Origin: Lobulomyces angularis
Taxonomy: Eukaryota; Chytridiomycota; Chytridiomycetes; Lobulomycetales; Lobulomycetaceae
Reading direction: 5' to 3'
DNA: 64,000 nt
NCBI GenBank assembly: GCA_027604685.1
Contig: JADHYX010000005.1
Location: 62,001-126,000 of the forward strand
The position numbers were made by a program, and so were the translations under genes. Positions within the stretch are counted from its first letter, which is position 1. Each line of letters begins with the position of its first letter. The notes below the pieces were generated by a model that saw only the letters and a program-made list of their open reading frames with translations, made no database searches and was not told the DNA's origin. Shown here piece after piece: positions 1-52,090 of the stretch.

Positions 1-2172
1 TACAAATTTAGCAAACTCGGTTAATTTTTCGATTATGGCCACAGGAGAATTATTATTTTCTCTTTCTTTTCTCCTTCTACTAGCTGAGTTATAATTGATA
101 TTACAATTTGTGAAATCTTGTGAGGTCCTATTATAAGTGCGATCAGACTTTATATTCTCGGTAGAGTTAGATTGATCTGAGCTTTCTTCGAAAAGGTCGT
201 ATGGTTGATATAAATTGTTGTTAAAATAGGTGATATTCTCGTTAAGAACAATATTTAAAATTATTTGTTTTAAGTTTTTAATTTTTATTGCGGCTTCCGG
301 TATTTTTCTGGTAAACTCCAGCCAGTTTTCTTTGGGATCCAAATTCACCTCATCTGGTTCTTTTTTAAACGCAGGTCTTTTGTCTAATTCTGGCTCTGTA
401 TAATCAGGCATTGCAAGAATTGAATCCAGAGTTGTTTTTAGTTCTACCTGCTCCATAAAAGGAATTCCAATGGAATTGGCAAACGCTTGTGCCGAATTTG
501 GTGTACGAAATAGTTGAGGAGGATCAATGCAGTCTCCAAGCCCATCGGTGCTAAACAATACAATATCCTCTCTGGTTAACAGAACTTGCCCAAAATGTAG
601 GTTATTTCCTTTGCATCTTAATCCACTTTTGCTTACTCTCCTAGGCTGCTGCTTTATATCTGCTATGGTTGGTGAAGTAGCCTTTTGTGAAGTGGGCCTC
701 CCCCAATCTTCTTCACTCCAAAAATGCATTCCATAAAGACGCTTTTGATCTCCATGATGGCCTCCCAGTCCACCGGGTGTCGAGGAAGTATCAATTCTAG
801 CTTTTTCTGTTGATGTTGGTTCTTTTAGGAGAGAAACCCATTCTTTAGTTTTGTGCTGAAATAACTGTACTTCAACATCTCCGGTTACTGCAAAGCAGCA
901 TACATACTCGAAATCGTGTTGCTTATTCTCTAATTTCAATATAACAAAAAAACTGGCAGTTGTGGAGCCTGCTTCTTGAACATTTTTACAGTTTTGATGA
1001 CTCTTAACTATAAGCTTTTGGAGCCACTGAAATATAACATGTGATGAAAGTGAATTTAATGTTGAATCAACACTTGTTTTCTTGCAATTATTTTCTCTAA
1101 CATCATCATTCGAATCAAGTTGGGTACTGCGTTCCGTAACAGTGCTTGGAGTTAGTAAATTGAGTAACTCGTCAATCATTTGATTGACGGTTGCTAAAAT
1201 GATGTTGCTAGCAAGTCTTGGAGCAAACCCAGAACCGCTTCCATCCACAGTGGCACCTACTGCAATACCTTTGTTTACTACTACAAAGTAACCGTCATTG
1301 TTCGGGTCGCTAACTAGCACTTTTTCTTTCAAAACCATTGCCGGATCAGTTGATGTAGGTTGCACATACGGATAAGAAGCTGTAAGAACTGCTTGGTACT
1401 TTGATTTTTCAGTCTGAATTTCTTTTAAAAGGGTAAAATCATGGAGTGGATGCTCACTAGTTCCTGCAACTACTTCTTTGTTATTTATTTGGACGCATCT
1501 GAAATCAAATCGTTCGTCTACTTTATGCTTTTGCAAGCAAATCTTTTGTCTAGTCACCGAATTGGGTTGAATATATATGATTGGCAAAAATTTCCAATGA
1601 GAGCAGTGTGCTTTCCTTGTTACATTCCAATACTTTTCTATCGTTGCAGTATAAATTACTAACAGAGGGTCTACCAAATCCAGATGATTTTGAAATTTAT
1701 TAAATATTTTTTCCAGACGATGAATTAAATTTAAGACATCCTTGATGGTTTGGGTTTTTGAAATTTTATGATGCTGAATTTGATCAGGTGAGAGAGATAT
1801 TCGTTTTTGTAAACTTTTTTTTTTCGGTAAATCAGACTCACCATAATCTGAAATATCTTGCAGTTTTTCTAATTCTTGCTGCATTTCAAAGTATAAGTTT
1901 TTAACTAAATTTACAATTTGAATTTCTTCTTCGGTAAAATTTTGAGATTCAGGTAAAACTGCATTATTAAAATTTTCTTTGTCATTGGTTTTGAAAATTT
2001 TTCCTATTACTTTTCCAATAACTGTTGCCTTTTTTTTCTTTTTTAAAATAAAATTTTGTTGTATAGGTTTTAGTTTCACTAAAAGTGAAAATAATTGTTC
2101 ATCTTTTGGATACAACTCTAGCAGTGTTAGTTGAGTTGTGCTGGAAACTGGACTTAAAGAAAGTTCACTCAT
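1..2172 (-). CDS. PP2C-like (PPM family) phosphatase-domain protein, 3' end outside window
   Basis: The reading frame is open without introns from an ATG at 2172 to the window edge (724 codons), so the C-terminus is missing. The N-terminal ~270 residues are charged and unrecognised. The PPM-type fold then shows as GATVDGSGSG (residues ~345-355), matching the family's metal-binding DG.G position, then a TASFFV strand, and LFSTDGLGD (~600), matching the family's SDGlwD motif. Between them lies a Gly/His patch, GGLGGHHGD. The first acidic metal ligand region could be VSDPNNDGYF, just before GATVDG. The family dephosphorylates Ser/Thr with Mn/Mg. Whether this divergent member is active cannot be told, because not all metal ligands are obvious. 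It could also be a pseudophosphatase scaffold. Both neighbouring genes downstream are on the same strand but unrelated. Confidence 0.72.
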   Translation of the reverse strand, partial: MSELSLSPVSSTTQLTLLELYPKDEQLFSLLVKLKPIQQNFILKKKKKATVIGKVIGKIFKTNDKENFNNAVLPESQNFTEEEIQIVNLVKNLYFEMQQELEKLQDISDYGESDLPKKKSLQKRISLSPDQIQHHKISKTQTIKDVLNLIHRLEKIFNKFQNHLDLVDPLLVIYTATIEKYWNVTRKAHCSHWKFLPIIYIQPNSVTRQKICLQKHKVDERFDFRCVQINNKEVVAGTSEHPLHDFTLLKEIQTEKSKYQAVLTASYPYVQPTSTDPAMVLKEKVLVSDPNNDGYFVVVNKGIAVGATVDGSGSGFAPRLASNIILATVNQMIDELLNLLTPSTVTERSTQLDSNDDVRENNCKKTSVDSTLNSLSSHVIFQWLQKLIVKSHQNCKNVQEAGSTTASFFVILKLENKQHDFEYVCCFAVTGDVEVQLFQHKTKEWVSLLKEPTSTEKARIDTSSTPGGLGGHHGDQKRLYGMHFWSEEDWGRPTSQKATSPTIADIKQQPRRVSKSGLRCKGNNLHFGQVLLTREDIVLFSTDGLGDCIDPPQLFRTPNSAQAFANSIGIPFMEQVELKTTLDSILAMPDYTEPELDKRPAFKKEPDEVNLDPKENWLEFTRKIPEAAIKIKNLKQIILNIVLNENITYFNNNLYQPYDLFEESSDQSNSTENIKSDRTYNRTSQDFTNCNINYNSASRRRKERENNNSPVAIIEKLTEFAKFV

Positions 2173-2468
2173 TCTTTTTTCAACTTATTACTTTTTTGTC
2201 CTCTTTTTTTTTTTTTGCAATTTTGATGTCCTTGACAATGATTGGCTATTGTAACAACTGAAAAAAGTACGAGACAGATTTCAATCATGTATTTAATTTG
2301 CATAAACAGATAAATTCTAACAATTATCAGAGTTTTACTGCAAATTTTATATTTTTACAAGTGTAGAACATTTATTATAAAAGAGGTAACTAAACTTAAA
2401 AAAATAAAAAAGAGATACAGAATAAGAATGTTTAGGTTTTAATGAAAAATAACTTTTTTAAGTTTTGG

Positions 2469-5400
2469 TTATAGTTTGCGAATTTTATCTTTAGTAAAAC
2501 CTTCTGTTTCTAAGATTTCAACAACTATTGGTACCAGAAATTTATTTATAAATGCACTTATAATGATTCTTACCTAAGTTAGTAAATGATGCTGGTCCAC
2601 TTACAACTATACAAGTTTTATTTTCCGAGAGTGGCATTGTTGCTTTCACTATCTCTGAATCAATCTAAAGTAAAAAATTAAAAATGATATTTCCATAAAT
2701 TTCTTACATCTCCAACTAATCCTTCGTAATTATGATCAGCAACCTTCAGCAACTGTGTTATTTGAAGGCTTCCACCACTTTTTTTAATGCAGTCACTTAG
2801 GAGTTGTTTCGCAAAAATATCATTGTAAGTATTATTCACATTTAGTAGATGAATTTTGCTATTTAGCATATTTGTTGTGGCATCCCTTTTCGAATTTAAC
2901 AGATGATAATTTATTAACTGTAAACACGGAGTTAATCCAGTCCCACCTGCTATCAATCCTAAGTTATCCCAACAGCCATCCTCTGTTTCATGGCAAAGTA
3001 GAGGTACTCCAGATAAAGGACCTCTCAGATTAATTGAATTGCAAGCTAGTAAGTGTCGAGTCATGTCACCATCGTACCTAATTATTAAAATAATCTAAAA
3101 ATTTTAAGAAATTTTTTACATTTTTATCATAAACTCAATTGATCCTTGGTTTATACAGTTTATCGGACAATAGCTTCTAGTTATGACCGCTCCAGTAGAA
3201 GTAATATACCGAAAGTTAAAGTATTCTCCTGGTTTAATTTTTAGCGTTGAATTTTGGTCTGGAAAAGAAAATATAAAGGAATAGACAGGACGTTTACTAT
3301 TCCCCTCTGTTAATAATGTCTTGCTTTCTAAATCTCTATAAAATTCAACAGTTAAAAATTTTTTTTTGATTGATGTTCTATACAGTTTAACAAATTTTTC
3401 AGAAAAAATTAGTTTTTTGGAAAATCCTTTTTCTTCATCTGCAATTAATGTTGGACGAGATAGATCCAAGTCGCTTTTTTCCTCGTCCATTAATGCAATT
3501 TTTCCAACTGCTAACTTTTCTAACATAAATCTTCATTTTTAAAAATGGTTAGTGTCAAGTATCTAATTTCTTATTAGAATACCTTGCTAATCTCGAATGC
3601 TTATGAAATAGTTGACTATTTTTACTTCCAGTTTGAAAACCTTCAAAATAATTTGTTGCATCCTATTTTTTTTATTAAAAAATTGAAAATTTTTGTAAAA
3701 TAAAAATTACAATTCCTGTAACTTCGAGAAGAATGCTTTTTCCTCCAGGATGGCGATCAAAAACTTTCTGAACGTCATCTAAATTTAGCATTTTTAATTT
3801 CTTAGCAAAAAACCAATGCTATATATACATAGGGTATCATATATTATTATCCATTTTGCTCCAGATTCAACTCTCACATTTATTTCGTTCCTAAAGAAAT
3901 TCAAAATTTACTTTAAATTTCAGGTTAAAATTTTTCGCACCACTCAAAAACCGGTAAGTTCGCACTTGACGGATTAAAACCATTTGATGGTTTTCTTCTA
4001 ACTAATGAATTATTTGAAATTTTCAGATTTGGGTTTTTTAAAATTTTTCTTTTCTCATATTCGGCGAATGAAATCATCTGCGCTGGAATATATATTATTA
4101 TTCTTGCACATTGTTAGGTGATTTTCAAAATTTCTACAAATACTTACACCAAATATGCTAATGGCAATCCTTCATGAAGATCTGCTAGAACAGCTAAATC
4201 TCTACATCCCAAATAGCCATTAACTACAAGAAAAAAATCAATTTTGTAAATATTTGAAATTCCCTTACCAACTCCCAAGAAATACATTCCAAACCCAATA
4301 ATCTTGTGAATATTTCGTAGGAAAAGAGTATACTTAATAGTAAATCTAGTCGAAATTTTAAATGACATAAATCCTGTAAGAGAAACAAATACTATTGTTC
4401 CAATCATTACTAATCCACATATACTGTGCGCCGTAAGTCCTCCAGAAAAAGCATTCGTAACTAAAGCTGTTATTGCAATTACCACAGTCTACGAAATGGA
4501 TGAAATAATTTTAATTGAAGTTATAAGGTGAATTACATTAGAGGTAACAATTGACATTAGTGCTTGATGTATATCTAACCAAGTTCGAAGATTCGTATGA
4601 TATCTTGCGACATAAATACCTGCAGGGTACAAAAACCCAAAACTAATGAACATTAAGACTCCATGCATAATCAATGTGTTAACTCTTGAGCTGGACACTG
4701 AAACGGAAACCACCTCAATTATCGATTGTTTCAATTTCAAAAAATCAACTTCTAAATTTCCGCGTTGTGATGGACCATGATATTGTAGATTATACCCATT
4801 TAAATTATATGCAAAACTCAAATACTGCGTACCATTAACAATATCCTTAAATGTTGGACTTATTGTACTGGAAACTAGCGGTCTAGAAAATTGCAAAGAA
4901 ACTGGACCATCTTTACTTTCAGGATTTATATTTTTAAAGTTATTGATATTGGAAATTTCATTGAAGTCAACAAAACCAACGAATTGCCTTAAAAAATAAA
5001 TAGTTGTTCTAATAAATTATTGAAAAATATGTTACGAATGAGCATTTAATATATTCCAGCTTCCATTATTCTTGGTAAAAAAATAAATATCCATATCATT
5101 CATAGTTTTTCCTAATCCAAAGGCGAACCATCCAGTTGTATAATTTGTGGTAACTGTAAAAGTTATGGAGCCTTCAGATACACTCCAGTCCAATAAATAA
5201 TCCATTGTAAAACTTACTTTGTACGGAATTTTAGTCGCTTTCCGTGAATTGTCAGAAAATGTATTTACAGTTTCAGTTTCCAATATGAAAGGATTGTCAG
5301 GAAAGTTCTTTATTATGGTATTCAGATTTATTAGACTTCCCAATGTCATGCGCTTTAAGTCTTGCGTGTCTTCTTCATCTAATATGCCACTTAAATAAAA

Positions 5401-7117
5401 ATAGGGATCTCCATCTCGAATTCTCGTGAACTGCTCGCCGATGGAAGCACGAAATAATGGACCAATTGTTCCTACCCCATCGTTTTCTATTAAACCGCCT
5501 ATTGGATATTAATAAATTTACTACTTAATAATTTACTACCAATAAATGCTTCTATATTATTAACATTTTTGTATTCCTTTTTTAATATTTCTTGTAATTC
5601 AATGTTTGTTGTTAGATCAGACCATTCAGTGACTACTGGCAATCCAAATGCTTTTCTAGCTTCGTTGTAGGTGCATAGCCCAATATCCCTTGCTCTAAAG
5701 CAATAAAAAAAAAATATTGCACACTAATTTCACCTTTGCAAGGTAACTGCTAATAAATCAAAACCGTAAGGATTGTTAAAAGGTAAACTACTACGCAAAT
5801 CTTCAACATAGTTTAAATCAACTACTTGTTCTGGTTGTAAAATTGCTCCTCTTAAATACACTTCTATTCCAGAACGTAGGATATCTGCATAATTTTTATA
5901 CACAACATCCCTCAGTAACTAAAAAATGTGAATTTTAGGAAAAAGTAAAGAAGCATACCAAATGTCCCCCAGAATATGGTGAATTATTCTCATTGATTCG
6001 ATAAATTATTGTATTCACAGCAGAATGACCATATCTCATTGCAGCAGTTGAAAAAAATGTATCAATGGCAGGATTTACCGATGAGTTATAGCCAACGTAT
6101 TGCTCTAATGGTGATCCCAAAAGAATAGGTAGATACTACAAAAGTCAGATATAAGGTAACCAATGATACTCACTTGCTCATATGTGATTTTCTGCTTAAC
6201 AGCAATGGTCCATCTTCTAGATTTTTGAAAAATTTCTTCATCAGTCCAAGTTTCATTATAGCATTTTTTTAGATTTCTTGCCTTTCTATTATGCTCTCTA
6301 AGAAATAAAGTAGCAAAAATGTTTGAAGACTTAAATATTAGGGTAAATTCAAAAATTTCAATATTTCTTACTGGCACCACATTTGTGTTCGGCACACTCC
6401 AAATAAATTCGTTATTTCCAACAAGTGGAAATTCTCCTGTTTCATTATGTAAACTTTTTAACAATCCATCTTTAAATAATCTAACATCTTCAATTTTATT
6501 TCCGAAATAGTTTCCATTTCCATAAATTTCTGAAACGTCAATGAAAGGGGTAAAAGTGTTTTCCAAGTTAATTTTTCCATTAGTTTCACCAAACCTTACA
6601 GTTCTAGAAAAAGGAATTGTTTCATTTCCACTTCCATTAGGATCAAATGTAAGGTCACCTTTAGGAACTTTTATATCATCACTAACAGAGGAATTTCTGT
6701 TGGTCAAACTTATGTCCAAGTGCAGTTGCAATCCCCACTGTGGTAGTAGTTCTGATATAAACTTTTCTGTGTAAGATGTCTCCTGAACATTATTAAGAAG
6801 GTTGCTAAGTAGTCTTGCGGATGACAAATTTGATACTAAACTTTCTGTTTTCAACGTATTATTTTAAATGTACAAATTATATTACCAGGATCCGTATCTG
6901 TAAGCCTTGGAGGTGTTTTCCATAAATTATATTCACCAGATGCTCCATAATTTGGATGTTCTAAAAAGACGAAGTCTAAGCAGCAATTTTATAAAGATAT
7001 ACCTTCATTGCAGCCTGTACAATTATAGGATGCTATTTCCGAATTTTTATATGGAATCTGTAAACACAGAATAGTTGATATATGGGAACATAATAATAAG
7101 ATGAAGAAATTCTTCAT
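2469..7117 (-). CDS. Peroxidase-DOMON-cytochrome b561-cytochrome b5-FAD/NAD(P)H reductase chimera
   Basis: About 19 exons join in frame into ~1270 residues. After a signal peptide (MKNFFILLLCSHISTILC) comes a full animal haem-peroxidase domain (~40-540): LREHNRKARNLKK, YLPILLG, proximal-His motif AMRYGHS, ARDIGLCTYNEARKAFGLP and IRDGDPYFY. A DOMON domain follows (~545-690; TTGWFAFGLGKTMNDMD), then a cytochrome b561 core (~700-870) with the four expected histidines in IMHGVLMF, DIHQAL, AHSICGL and NIHKIIGF. Next is a cytochrome b5 domain (~895-985) with its ligands in DRHPGGKS and HKHSRLAR. Last is a cytochrome-b5-reductase-like module (FAD motif RSYCPI, nucleotide motifs GGTGLTP and SGPASF). 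Stop TAA at 2469-2471. By family logic, cytosolic NAD(P)H electrons would pass FAD, b5 and b561 to an extracellular acceptor (DOMON haem, peroxidase haem, iron or oxygen). The exact reaction is unknown. No stop or start interrupts the joins, so I read one gene, not several. Confidence 0.9.
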
Positions 7118-50278: not shown

Positions 50279-52090
50279 TTAGAAATCTTCAAATTGAACA
50301 ATACAAATTTCCTCAGTAATAGAAAGAGAACTCTTAAAGTTTTCATCCAAAATTGTACAAAGGTTATTGTCTATATTTTTATTAAAACAATCATTTTCGC
50401 AGGAAAAAATTAAAACAGTGCCGAAGTCTAAACCACTGCCGAAGATATTCAAGTATTCACTAAATTCATATTTATTACTGCTGTTTTTTTTTGGACCAGA
50501 AATAGTATTTTTTTTAAAGTCTCCTGAACTACCGTTGTTTAAAATTTTTGACATATAATTTAATTCATCAGACTTCAAAAATTCTAAAACTTTTGGCATT
50601 AACTGAAATTCAAATGTTCTATTAGAGCCACAATTTTGGCATTTTGATATTAAGGCATTATCCTTAATTTCACTAAAAATCGTACTTCCACTTTTTGGGT
50701 GAAAAATGCTTTTTATTTTTAAATCTTCTTTTTTCGAAACTTCCTGTAAACTAGAAAACAACAATGGCTGGCCATTAAATTCATACCTAATTAACTGATC
50801 AGGATTTTCTTTTATGGCATTTAAAAATTTATTAAACTCCGTGGTAAGAAAATTAGGTACAATATTTTCATAAACTTCTCCATCCCAAGTTATACTGTTA
50901 TTTGAAGAGCTGTTTTCATTTAAATCCCTAGTATTAAGTAACGGTTTTTTTGTTTTTGTTAAATGTTCAGTGTTACTAGGAGTCGGAGTGTCATTTTTCA
51001 TAAACAATCTAAATTTTGAGTCCCCTGTTCGTTGTTCATAATCTTCTAATAGTTTTAACTCATATTTGACATTATTATAATTATTTTTTCTCTTCTTTTT
51101 TTTTTGAACTTCCTCTTCTGTGTCATCAGACGAAGAGTAAAATATATTATCATCTTCAAAATCACTTTCCCTATCTTCATAATAAAAATCTATTAACGTT
51201 TCAGAAAAATGAAATGCATTAGTTTCATCTGACACCAAATTTAATTCATTTAAATTAGCAGTAATTTCCGAGATTAAGATATTATTGCTTTTATCGTTAT
51301 CATTTTCAAACTCTTCATGTTCTTCATTAAAATCGTAAATTTTGTCTCTCTCTTCAATAAGATTATTAATTTCATTTGACAATTCATTCGGAGAAACGTC
51401 TCCAAAATGAACATTTCCAAACATCGGTGCATCCCCAAAGGCGAATGAATTGTTTTGGACAGTATTTAAAGCATCCGTGCTACCAAAAAGTGGTATTTCA
51501 AAATTATCTGCATCAATAAAAGTTAATAAATCATTGATTATAAATTTTTTTGTACTCGCTGATTTTGTTTTCTTTTTTTCGGTACTTAATGCATTTAAGG
51601 ATGCATCCTAATAAAAATGCAGTAAAATAATAAAATAAATTCAACATTCGTTTTTTTAACAATAAAAAAAAAAAAAAAAAAAACAATTAACTTACAGTAG
51701 TTAATGGATTTTTTCCATTGGTGTCTTTCTCATTTATATTAGTTAAGAGTTTTTTCTTTAATTTTGTAACTTTACGTAATACTCTTAAAACCTTCCAACT
51801 GCCACTCACTTTTAGGCATTTCCTATTGTTGCAAGCAAATACATAAAAAATTCTTTCTAACTCCTCATCAACAGTCGTGTTCAGTTGAGTTATTAACAAG
51901 CACTTTTCTTTACAGTTAAAACACATTGGTGAAATGTTTATGGTTGGAAAAAATTTCTACAAATAAAAAAAAATAAAATTTTTCAAGTTAGAAGATTGCA
52001 TACAGGATTTCCACCTAATTTGTCCATGATATAATTCTTTTTTGAATAAGCACCTTTAAGCTGTTGATTTGCTTCGTATCCTATTTGCAT
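50279..52090 (-). CDS. TSR4: TSR4/PDCD2-family ribosome biogenesis protein
   Basis: Three or four exons (ATG 52090). The N-terminus reads DKLGGNPKFFPTINISPMCF, the family's GG.P.W...., then a CxxC pair in CFNCKEKC, LITQLNTTVDEELERIFYVF and FACNNRKC, the first zinc-binding module. A long acidic, disordered middle follows (DFYYEDRESDFEDDNIF). The C-terminal module has CQNCGSNRTFEFQLMPKVLE and DFGTVLIFSCENDC, as in PDCD2/Tsr4. These proteins chaperone ribosomal protein uS5 (Rps2). A poly-A tract lies in the intron at ~51660. Confidence 0.9.

Follow-up and report, generated by a model that had tools for sequence, protein, structure and literature searches.

A peroxidase-DOMON-b561-b5-reductase fusion protein in Lobulomyces angularis and its relatives: a possible second dual-oxidase design

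The window analysed here, 64,000 nucleotides (nt) of contig C5 in the genome of Lobulomyces angularis (Chytridiomycota, Lobulomycetales; 20.8 Mb, 533 contigs), carries a gene on its minus strand that encodes a single multidomain redox protein. Read from an ATG at 7117 to a stop that ends at 2469, its 19 exons form one open frame by hand splicing. From the N to the C terminus, the protein consists of a probable signal peptide, an animal-type haem peroxidase domain (hereafter the head), a DOMON domain, cytochrome b561, cytochrome b5 and a module binding flavin adenine dinucleotide (FAD) and nicotinamide adenine dinucleotide (phosphate) (NAD(P)H). Both the coordinates with a single spliced frame and the five-part order had been proposed in an earlier note on this DNA, and both proved right on Pfam matches and on two further gene models described below. 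The main features are as follows (aa, amino acids).

2469..7117, minus strand: whole gene of 19 exons with 18 GT-AG introns (38-52 nt), encoding 1281 aa (hand splicing, profile-guided splicing, NCBI model P0001)
7061..7117, minus strand: hydrophobic stretch at the N terminus (aa 1-19), likely a signal peptide (hydropathy)
5290..7027, minus strand: animal-type haem-peroxidase head (aa 31-515, introns included)
6717..6722, minus strand: distal-site codons H105-L106 (alignments to solved peroxidases and family rows)
6025..6027, minus strand: proximal His H310 (RYGHS), retained (alignments)
4810..5202, minus strand: DOMON (aa 545-659; PF03351, conservation), candidate haem ligands M578 and H670, the latter just beyond the Pfam range
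4204..4668, minus strand: cytochrome b561 core (PF03188; Pfam aa 707-830, extra helix to about aa 866), H708, H740, H771, H811
3497..3865, minus strand: cytochrome b5 (PF00173; Pfam aa 912-984), H933, H968
3017..3286, minus strand: FAD-binding domain (PF00970; aa 1055-1130), RSYC motif R1091/Y1093
2523..2956, minus strand: NAD(P)-binding domain (PF00175; aa 1151-1264), GGTGLTP motif

The Pfam scan and the first protein search were carried out with a 1286-aa version of the protein, in which intron 13 was placed at 3813-3779. All modules scored above the Pfam cut-offs: An_peroxidase (E 4e-95), DOMON (4e-10), Cytochrom_B561 (1e-5), Cyt-b5 (4e-7), FAD_binding_6 (5e-7) and NAD_binding_1 (1e-9), with Cytochrom_B561 clearing its cut-off narrowly (26.2 vs 23 bits). 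The hallmarks of CYBDOM proteins, DOMON followed by b561 with M578, H670, H708, H740, H771 and H811, are all present, and so are those of cytochrome b5 and its reductase (H933, H968, R1091, Y1093, GGTG); the four b561 and both b5 histidines had been pointed out before, and the DOMON Met and His are added here. Searches for solved relatives of the DOMON and b561 parts by sequence returned none at E up to 1, and fold searches barely probed these parts. A whole-chain structure prediction, suggested as a check in the earlier note, was run for the relative P0061; it returned five membrane helices in the b561 part and a b5-reductase fold in the reductase part, though not a firm arrangement of the domains. 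The head takes a peroxidase fold in the predicted model of a relative.

The gene model was examined by two other routes. A spliced alignment guided by a profile of five proteins (P0002-P0006) from four other fungal species also yields a single chain, with 17 introns, 16 of them identical to those of the 1281-aa model; intron 2 has the same donor and a different acceptor, and the last of the 18 introns lies past the end of this alignment. The NCBI model P0001, annotated as "Peroxidase mlt-7 [Lobulomyces angularis]", is likewise a single chain, 98% identical to the window protein. It reads through intron 3 and uses a different start, and the differences in its alignment are gene-model choices. 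Domain boundaries map to exons and introns as follows.

5036..5498, minus strand: exon 8 (aa 446-599), peroxidase and DOMON joined without an intron (exon-domain mapping)
4537..4987, minus strand: exon 9 (aa 600-750), DOMON and b561 joined without an intron (exon-domain mapping)
3941..4102, minus strand: exon 12 (aa 849-902), last helix of b561, then the cytosolic linker and the LPVFE lead-in; its final residue is the first of the b5 profile
3891..3940, minus strand: intron 12, at the b561-b5 junction (hand and profile-guided splicing, same in P0001)
3828-3779, minus strand: intron 13 (in agreement with P0001 and profile-guided splicing)
3120..3530, minus strand: exon 16 (aa 973-1109), b5 and FAD domain joined without an intron (exon-domain mapping)

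Exon 17 carries the FAD/NAD junction, also without an intron. With intron 12 placed where the b5 profile begins, the b561-b5 link is the sole module link that depends on splicing; it is backed by profile-guided splicing, by P0001 and by the same order in relatives. The metagenome protein P0029, whose 1334 aa span this junction, comes from a contig of 4358 bases, which leaves little space for introns or a second gene. At the level of sequence, the fusion of all modules in one gene is thus confirmed.

The full order, which had first looked like a one-off, occurs in many sequenced early-diverging fungi. Three protein searches, each scoring about 8000 candidates, give a lower bound of its distribution, in which absences mean little. 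Among chytrids, members were found in Chytriomyces, Phlyctochytrium, Dinochytrium, Nowakowskiella, Synchytrium, Cladochytrium, Geranomyces, Obelidium, Blyttiomyces and Rhizoclosmatium, as well as in Powellomyces (N-terminal part only), Siphonaria (an entry marked UNVERIFIED_CONTAM), Physocladia and Entophlyctis (both partial). Other fungal members come from Allomyces, Podila (partial, with a model lacking the reductase) and the arbuscular-mycorrhizal Rhizophagus and Funneliformis. Beyond these, the family includes the xanthophyte alga Tribonema and the metagenome proteins P0027 and P0029. Pfam lists the head, DOMON, b5 and FAD domain in P0027 and leaves b561 and the NAD domain unlisted. Goniomonas P0025 consists of head, DOMON and b561, without b5 and reductase. 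A query with the headless part of the protein produced 14 matches, 12 of which have a peroxidase domain; the remaining two are a 356-aa DOMON protein and a Thecamonas DOMON-b561 protein. The named database entries that we saw are called "heme peroxidase", "Peroxidase mlt-7", "hypothetical protein" or similar. Two members show additional features: P0029 apparently has two b5 modules (two HPGG motifs, by eye), and the database model of P0004 (Phlyctochytrium) also contains a protein-kinase domain (PF00069), probably from a fused neighbouring gene.

Two paralogues in the L. angularis genome, L009 on contig C43 and L010 on contig C350, share the same plan, and ligand residues were aligned for both. 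Their spliced models are automatic. In these models, each paralogue shares five intron positions with the window gene, and the two have 13 in common. The final part of L009 is cut, and its DOMON, b561 and NAD domains score below Pfam cut-offs. L010 is cut off before the N terminus by the end of its contig, and the first part of its model is doubtful; at about 7200-7739 of C350, close to the contig's end, head exons seem duplicated or misordered, which may reflect a tandem copy or an assembly fault.

Conservation of cofactor sites was assessed in an alignment of 29 family rows, where denominators are the rows with a letter at a given column. The residues of the putative electron wire are nearly invariant. 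The DOMON Met is found in 29/29 rows and the DOMON His in 26/26 (gaps in P0011, P0068 and P0069). The four b561 histidines are conserved in 26/26, 26/26, 27/27 and 26/26 rows, respectively. The first b5 His is present in 27/27 rows and the second in 26/27 (a spurious Goniomonas letter excluded), the exception being Podila, which is probably misaligned. With Podila set aside, since its model ends before both sites, the FAD Arg is kept in 26/26 rows and the first NAD Gly in 25/25.

The head presents a different picture. It aligns without gaps at the distal site to the solved peroxidases 8s6c and 6erc, and the substitution is seen there too: the column of the distal His is L106 in the window protein (H105-L106), where 8s6c has Asp-His. 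Across the family, the distal His is lost in 20 of 22 covered rows, including all covered fungal rows with the window protein and the C43 paralogue among them, and is kept in two (Goniomonas P0025 and metagenome P0027); in other rows it is replaced by Leu, Met, Phe, Ser, Thr, Gln or Tyr. A His one residue before the distal position occurs in 15/22 covered rows, all of them chytrid (15 of 16 chytrid rows, the exception being Nowakowskiella). The column of the distal Arg, N217 in the window protein, holds Arg in five of 25 covered rows (Tribonema, Funneliformis, Allomyces, Goniomonas and P0027) and in no covered row of Chytridiomycota; Rhizophagus has an Arg one residue off. Only P0025 (VHD, Arg, GHT) and P0027 (AHD, Arg, GHS) combine distal His, distal Arg and proximal His. 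The candidate calcium site is well preserved. Its residues in the window head are D107, T162, D166 and S168, whose reference we take to be D96/T168/D172/S174 of myeloperoxidase, and conservation at these columns is D/E 22/22, T/S 25/25, D 25/25 and S 23/25 of covered rows. Without a distal His, peroxidase intermediates should not form efficiently. Since the distal His is lost in the covered fungal rows, and the distal Arg in those of Chytridiomycota, the head is unlikely to work as a classical peroxidase in fungi. The fungal head would rather resemble the "peroxidase homology domain" of the animal dual oxidases (DUOX), and it may still hold a haem through its proximal His.

Each part of the protein has known counterparts. 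CYBDOM proteins such as Arabidopsis HYP1 share the DOMON with a Met/His haem pair and the b561 with four His; they differ in that HYP1 draws on cytosolic ascorbate, whereas the window protein has a built-in b5 and reductase, plus a peroxidase head. In the passages of the HYP1 study available to us, outward electron transport, with ferric and cupric substrates reduced by cytosolic ascorbate, is described and a path from b561 to DOMON is proposed (PMC10784544). The fused reductase suggests NAD(P)H instead of ascorbate as the donor. NADH-cytochrome b5 reductase and b5-reductase fusions (nitrate reductase, CYB5R4) provide the nearest solved sequences and folds for the b5 and FAD/NAD module, which in the window protein is attached to a membrane and outside electron path. 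The peroxidase-cyclooxygenase superfamily (DdPoxA, lactoperoxidase, cyanobacterial 8s6c) matches the head in sequence and, in a relative's model, in fold; the family heads differ from these enzymes in lacking the distal His (in chytrids also the distal Arg) and in being tethered to a membrane electron chain.

Taking the gene, the order of modules, the cofactor residues and the folds of head and reductase in relatives as established, we infer topology, electron flow, acceptor and role of the head as follows. The protein is probably a plasma-membrane electron exporter driven by NAD(P)H, in which the fungal head is not a classical peroxidase. Cytosolic NAD(P)H would reduce FAD, and electrons would then pass to the b5 haem, from there to the inner and the outer b561 haem, and so reach the outer face of the membrane; the b5-reductase part would replace the ascorbate of HYP1. 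The DOMON haem would deliver electrons to an outside acceptor, which may be a metal ion (ferric or cupric), oxygen or the head's own haem, and the head would be anchored over the exit of the wire. The head most likely binds haem without classical peroxidase action, as a terminal redox site or as a structural and regulatory cap, somewhat as in DUOX. By domain anatomy, outward export of electrons is very likely. As for the acceptor, we tentatively favour a metal; oxygen is possible, the head's own haem rather unlikely and any other acceptor improbable. These gradings of export and acceptor are our judgement. An NAD(P)H-to-outside chain had been suggested in the earlier note; the route stands by anatomy, but a head acting in it as a working classical peroxidase is, with its distal site lost, unlikely in fungi.

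Several observations weigh against an exporter of this kind. The proximal His is retained in 24 of 26 covered rows (the exceptions are Tribonema and Allomyces), and therefore the head may still perform haem chemistry. Goniomonas has no reductase, so another donor can feed the wire, and Tribonema P0011 lacks the stretch with the DOMON His. In one chytrid subclade (P0003, P0060, P0061, P0062, P0065, P0068) the NAD motif GGTG is replaced by EGIG, DGIG or EGIA and the FAD motif is RSYW (by eye); with these motifs altered, its electron supply may differ. The Pfam b561 model passes in the window protein and in Goniomonas and is below the cut-off or unlisted in five of seven scanned proteins (L009, P0061, P0006, P0027 and P0011), whose b561 identity is read from the four His and, in P0061, from the helices as well. 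The Pfam NAD domain is unlisted in P0061 and P0027. Confidence in the whole-chain model of P0061 is moderate (predicted local distance difference test, pLDDT, 71; predicted template modelling score, pTM, 0.40), so that the model does not settle domain placement. Finally, according to the available passages on HYP1, its DOMON step could not be tested because the mutants were mislocalised (PMC10784544).

Alternative explanations concern the head and the gene model. The wire might make superoxide or H2O2 outside the cell for an active head to use, for example in cross-linking wall proteins. Complete active sites in Goniomonas P0025 and metagenome P0027 would fit such a self-feeding peroxidase, as would the fold and the proximal His that most fungal rows retain; loss of the distal His nearly throughout the family, the window protein and its C43 paralogue included, and the scarcity of Arg at the distal-Arg column (5/25) make it quite unlikely. 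A sharper form of the exporter reading, compatible with it, is that the haem on the proximal His is itself reduced via DOMON, turning the head into a terminal oxidase, an oxygenase or a peroxide reductase or, in chytrids with the additional His, into a bis-His carrier. A reductase, a haem wire and a head of haem fold in one chain speak for it, together with the His at the -1 position in 15 of the 16 Chytridiomycota rows (15/22 overall), but the -1 residue may point to the haem edge and not to the iron. This residue presumably corresponds to the haem-ester Asp of myeloperoxidase. We regard this form as doubtful, though worth keeping in view.

It is also conceivable that annotation fused neighbouring DOMON-b561 and b5-reductase genes. 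NCBI models are themselves predictions, an intron interrupts the b561-b5 link, and both paralogue models, judging by exon lengths, seem to have an intron near this junction. On the other hand, the remaining junctions lie inside exons, profile-guided splicing and P0001 concur at intron 12, the same order recurs in several phyla and in two paralogues, and the P0029 contig has little space for a second gene. Such an artefact is very improbable, if marginally less so than we would otherwise hold, because the b561-b5 link does cross an intron.

The comparison with DUOX, also made in the earlier note, is upheld, and it is strengthened because the head shows a similar loss of the catalytic site. Both have an N-terminal domain of the animal-peroxidase type (by Pfam in the window protein, by fold in a relative's model). 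They differ in the membrane core, which is b561 in the window protein and not of the ferric-reductase/NOX type, and in the additional DOMON and b5. Neither of the NOX core families PF01794 and PF08022, nor any EF-hand family, is among the eight Pfam families matched by the window protein at E up to 1; NAD_binding_6 reaches only E 0.071, below the cut-off. In the available passages on the human DUOX1 head, the haem-ligand His is absent, no haem was seen, and variants mutated at its two cation sites do not assemble with DUOXA1 (PMC7794343). In our comparison alignment, the distal His is also missing from the five DUOX rows and is present in four rows of bacterial or cyanobacterial origin; one insect row is without it and one peroxidasin row shows a gap there, probably from cropping. 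A missing NOX as the reason for the fusion protein was considered and rejected, as the same genome has a gp91phox/NOX2-like frame (L013, contig C25; 303 bits to the cytochrome b-245 heavy chain).

Relationships between the heads were examined in two trees. In a tree of 40 heads, among them 24 of the 29 family rows, a branch supported at 97/93 sets the family apart from the rest and DUOX is recovered at 100/100; three family rows are long-branched. Dropping 11 of the 40 rows as long, short or partial left 29 better-covered heads, in whose tree the family separates from all 13 other rows at 100/97, with DUOX again at 100/100. One common loss of the distal His in these heads and in DUOX was considered and rejected as well: forcing the fungal heads without distal His together with DUOX was mildly rejected by the approximately unbiased test (p-AU 0.026; groups chosen after the 40-head tree). 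Because of this mild rejection, the distal site was probably lost independently of DUOX, by convergence. The family and DUOX as sister heads were not rejected (p-AU 0.328).

Elsewhere in the window, a 728-aa open frame on the minus strand (1..2184) runs off the window and has no Pfam match at E 0.001, and a 442-aa frame at 50279..51607, also minus, contains a PDCD2_C domain (E 2.9e-25).

The component parts of this protein are already known, and databases contain the combined architecture in generically named entries. Earlier descriptions of many proteins with the identical order would have spoken against novelty: such entries do exist, but in the open-access literature, judged by titles and abstract openings among the papers listed and by the passages available to us, no paper describing this architecture was found. 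The only paper with both the peroxidase and the DOMON Pfam accessions among those found is, from what was seen of it, on the ferric-reductase superfamily. We see a real chance of a second dual-oxidase design. In a broader and more tentative form, which we would put somewhat short of even odds, early-diverging fungi and relatives in other eukaryotes would have a second dual oxidase that was assembled independently and works as an NAD(P)H oxidase or reductase; its wire would be of b561/DOMON and not of NOX type, and its head would have lost the distal site independently of animal DUOX and now be an electron-fed terminal haem or a structural cap. If true, the DUOX plan would have been built twice from unrelated membrane cores, with the peroxidase head damaged both times, and this poses the question of what a catalytically damaged peroxidase head is for. 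Goniomonas and P0027, with their complete active sites, offer a natural before-and-after pair for testing. Chytrids and arbuscular-mycorrhizal fungi, both of which have the family, are groups in which reduction of iron and reactive oxygen at the cell surface bear on nutrition and host contact.

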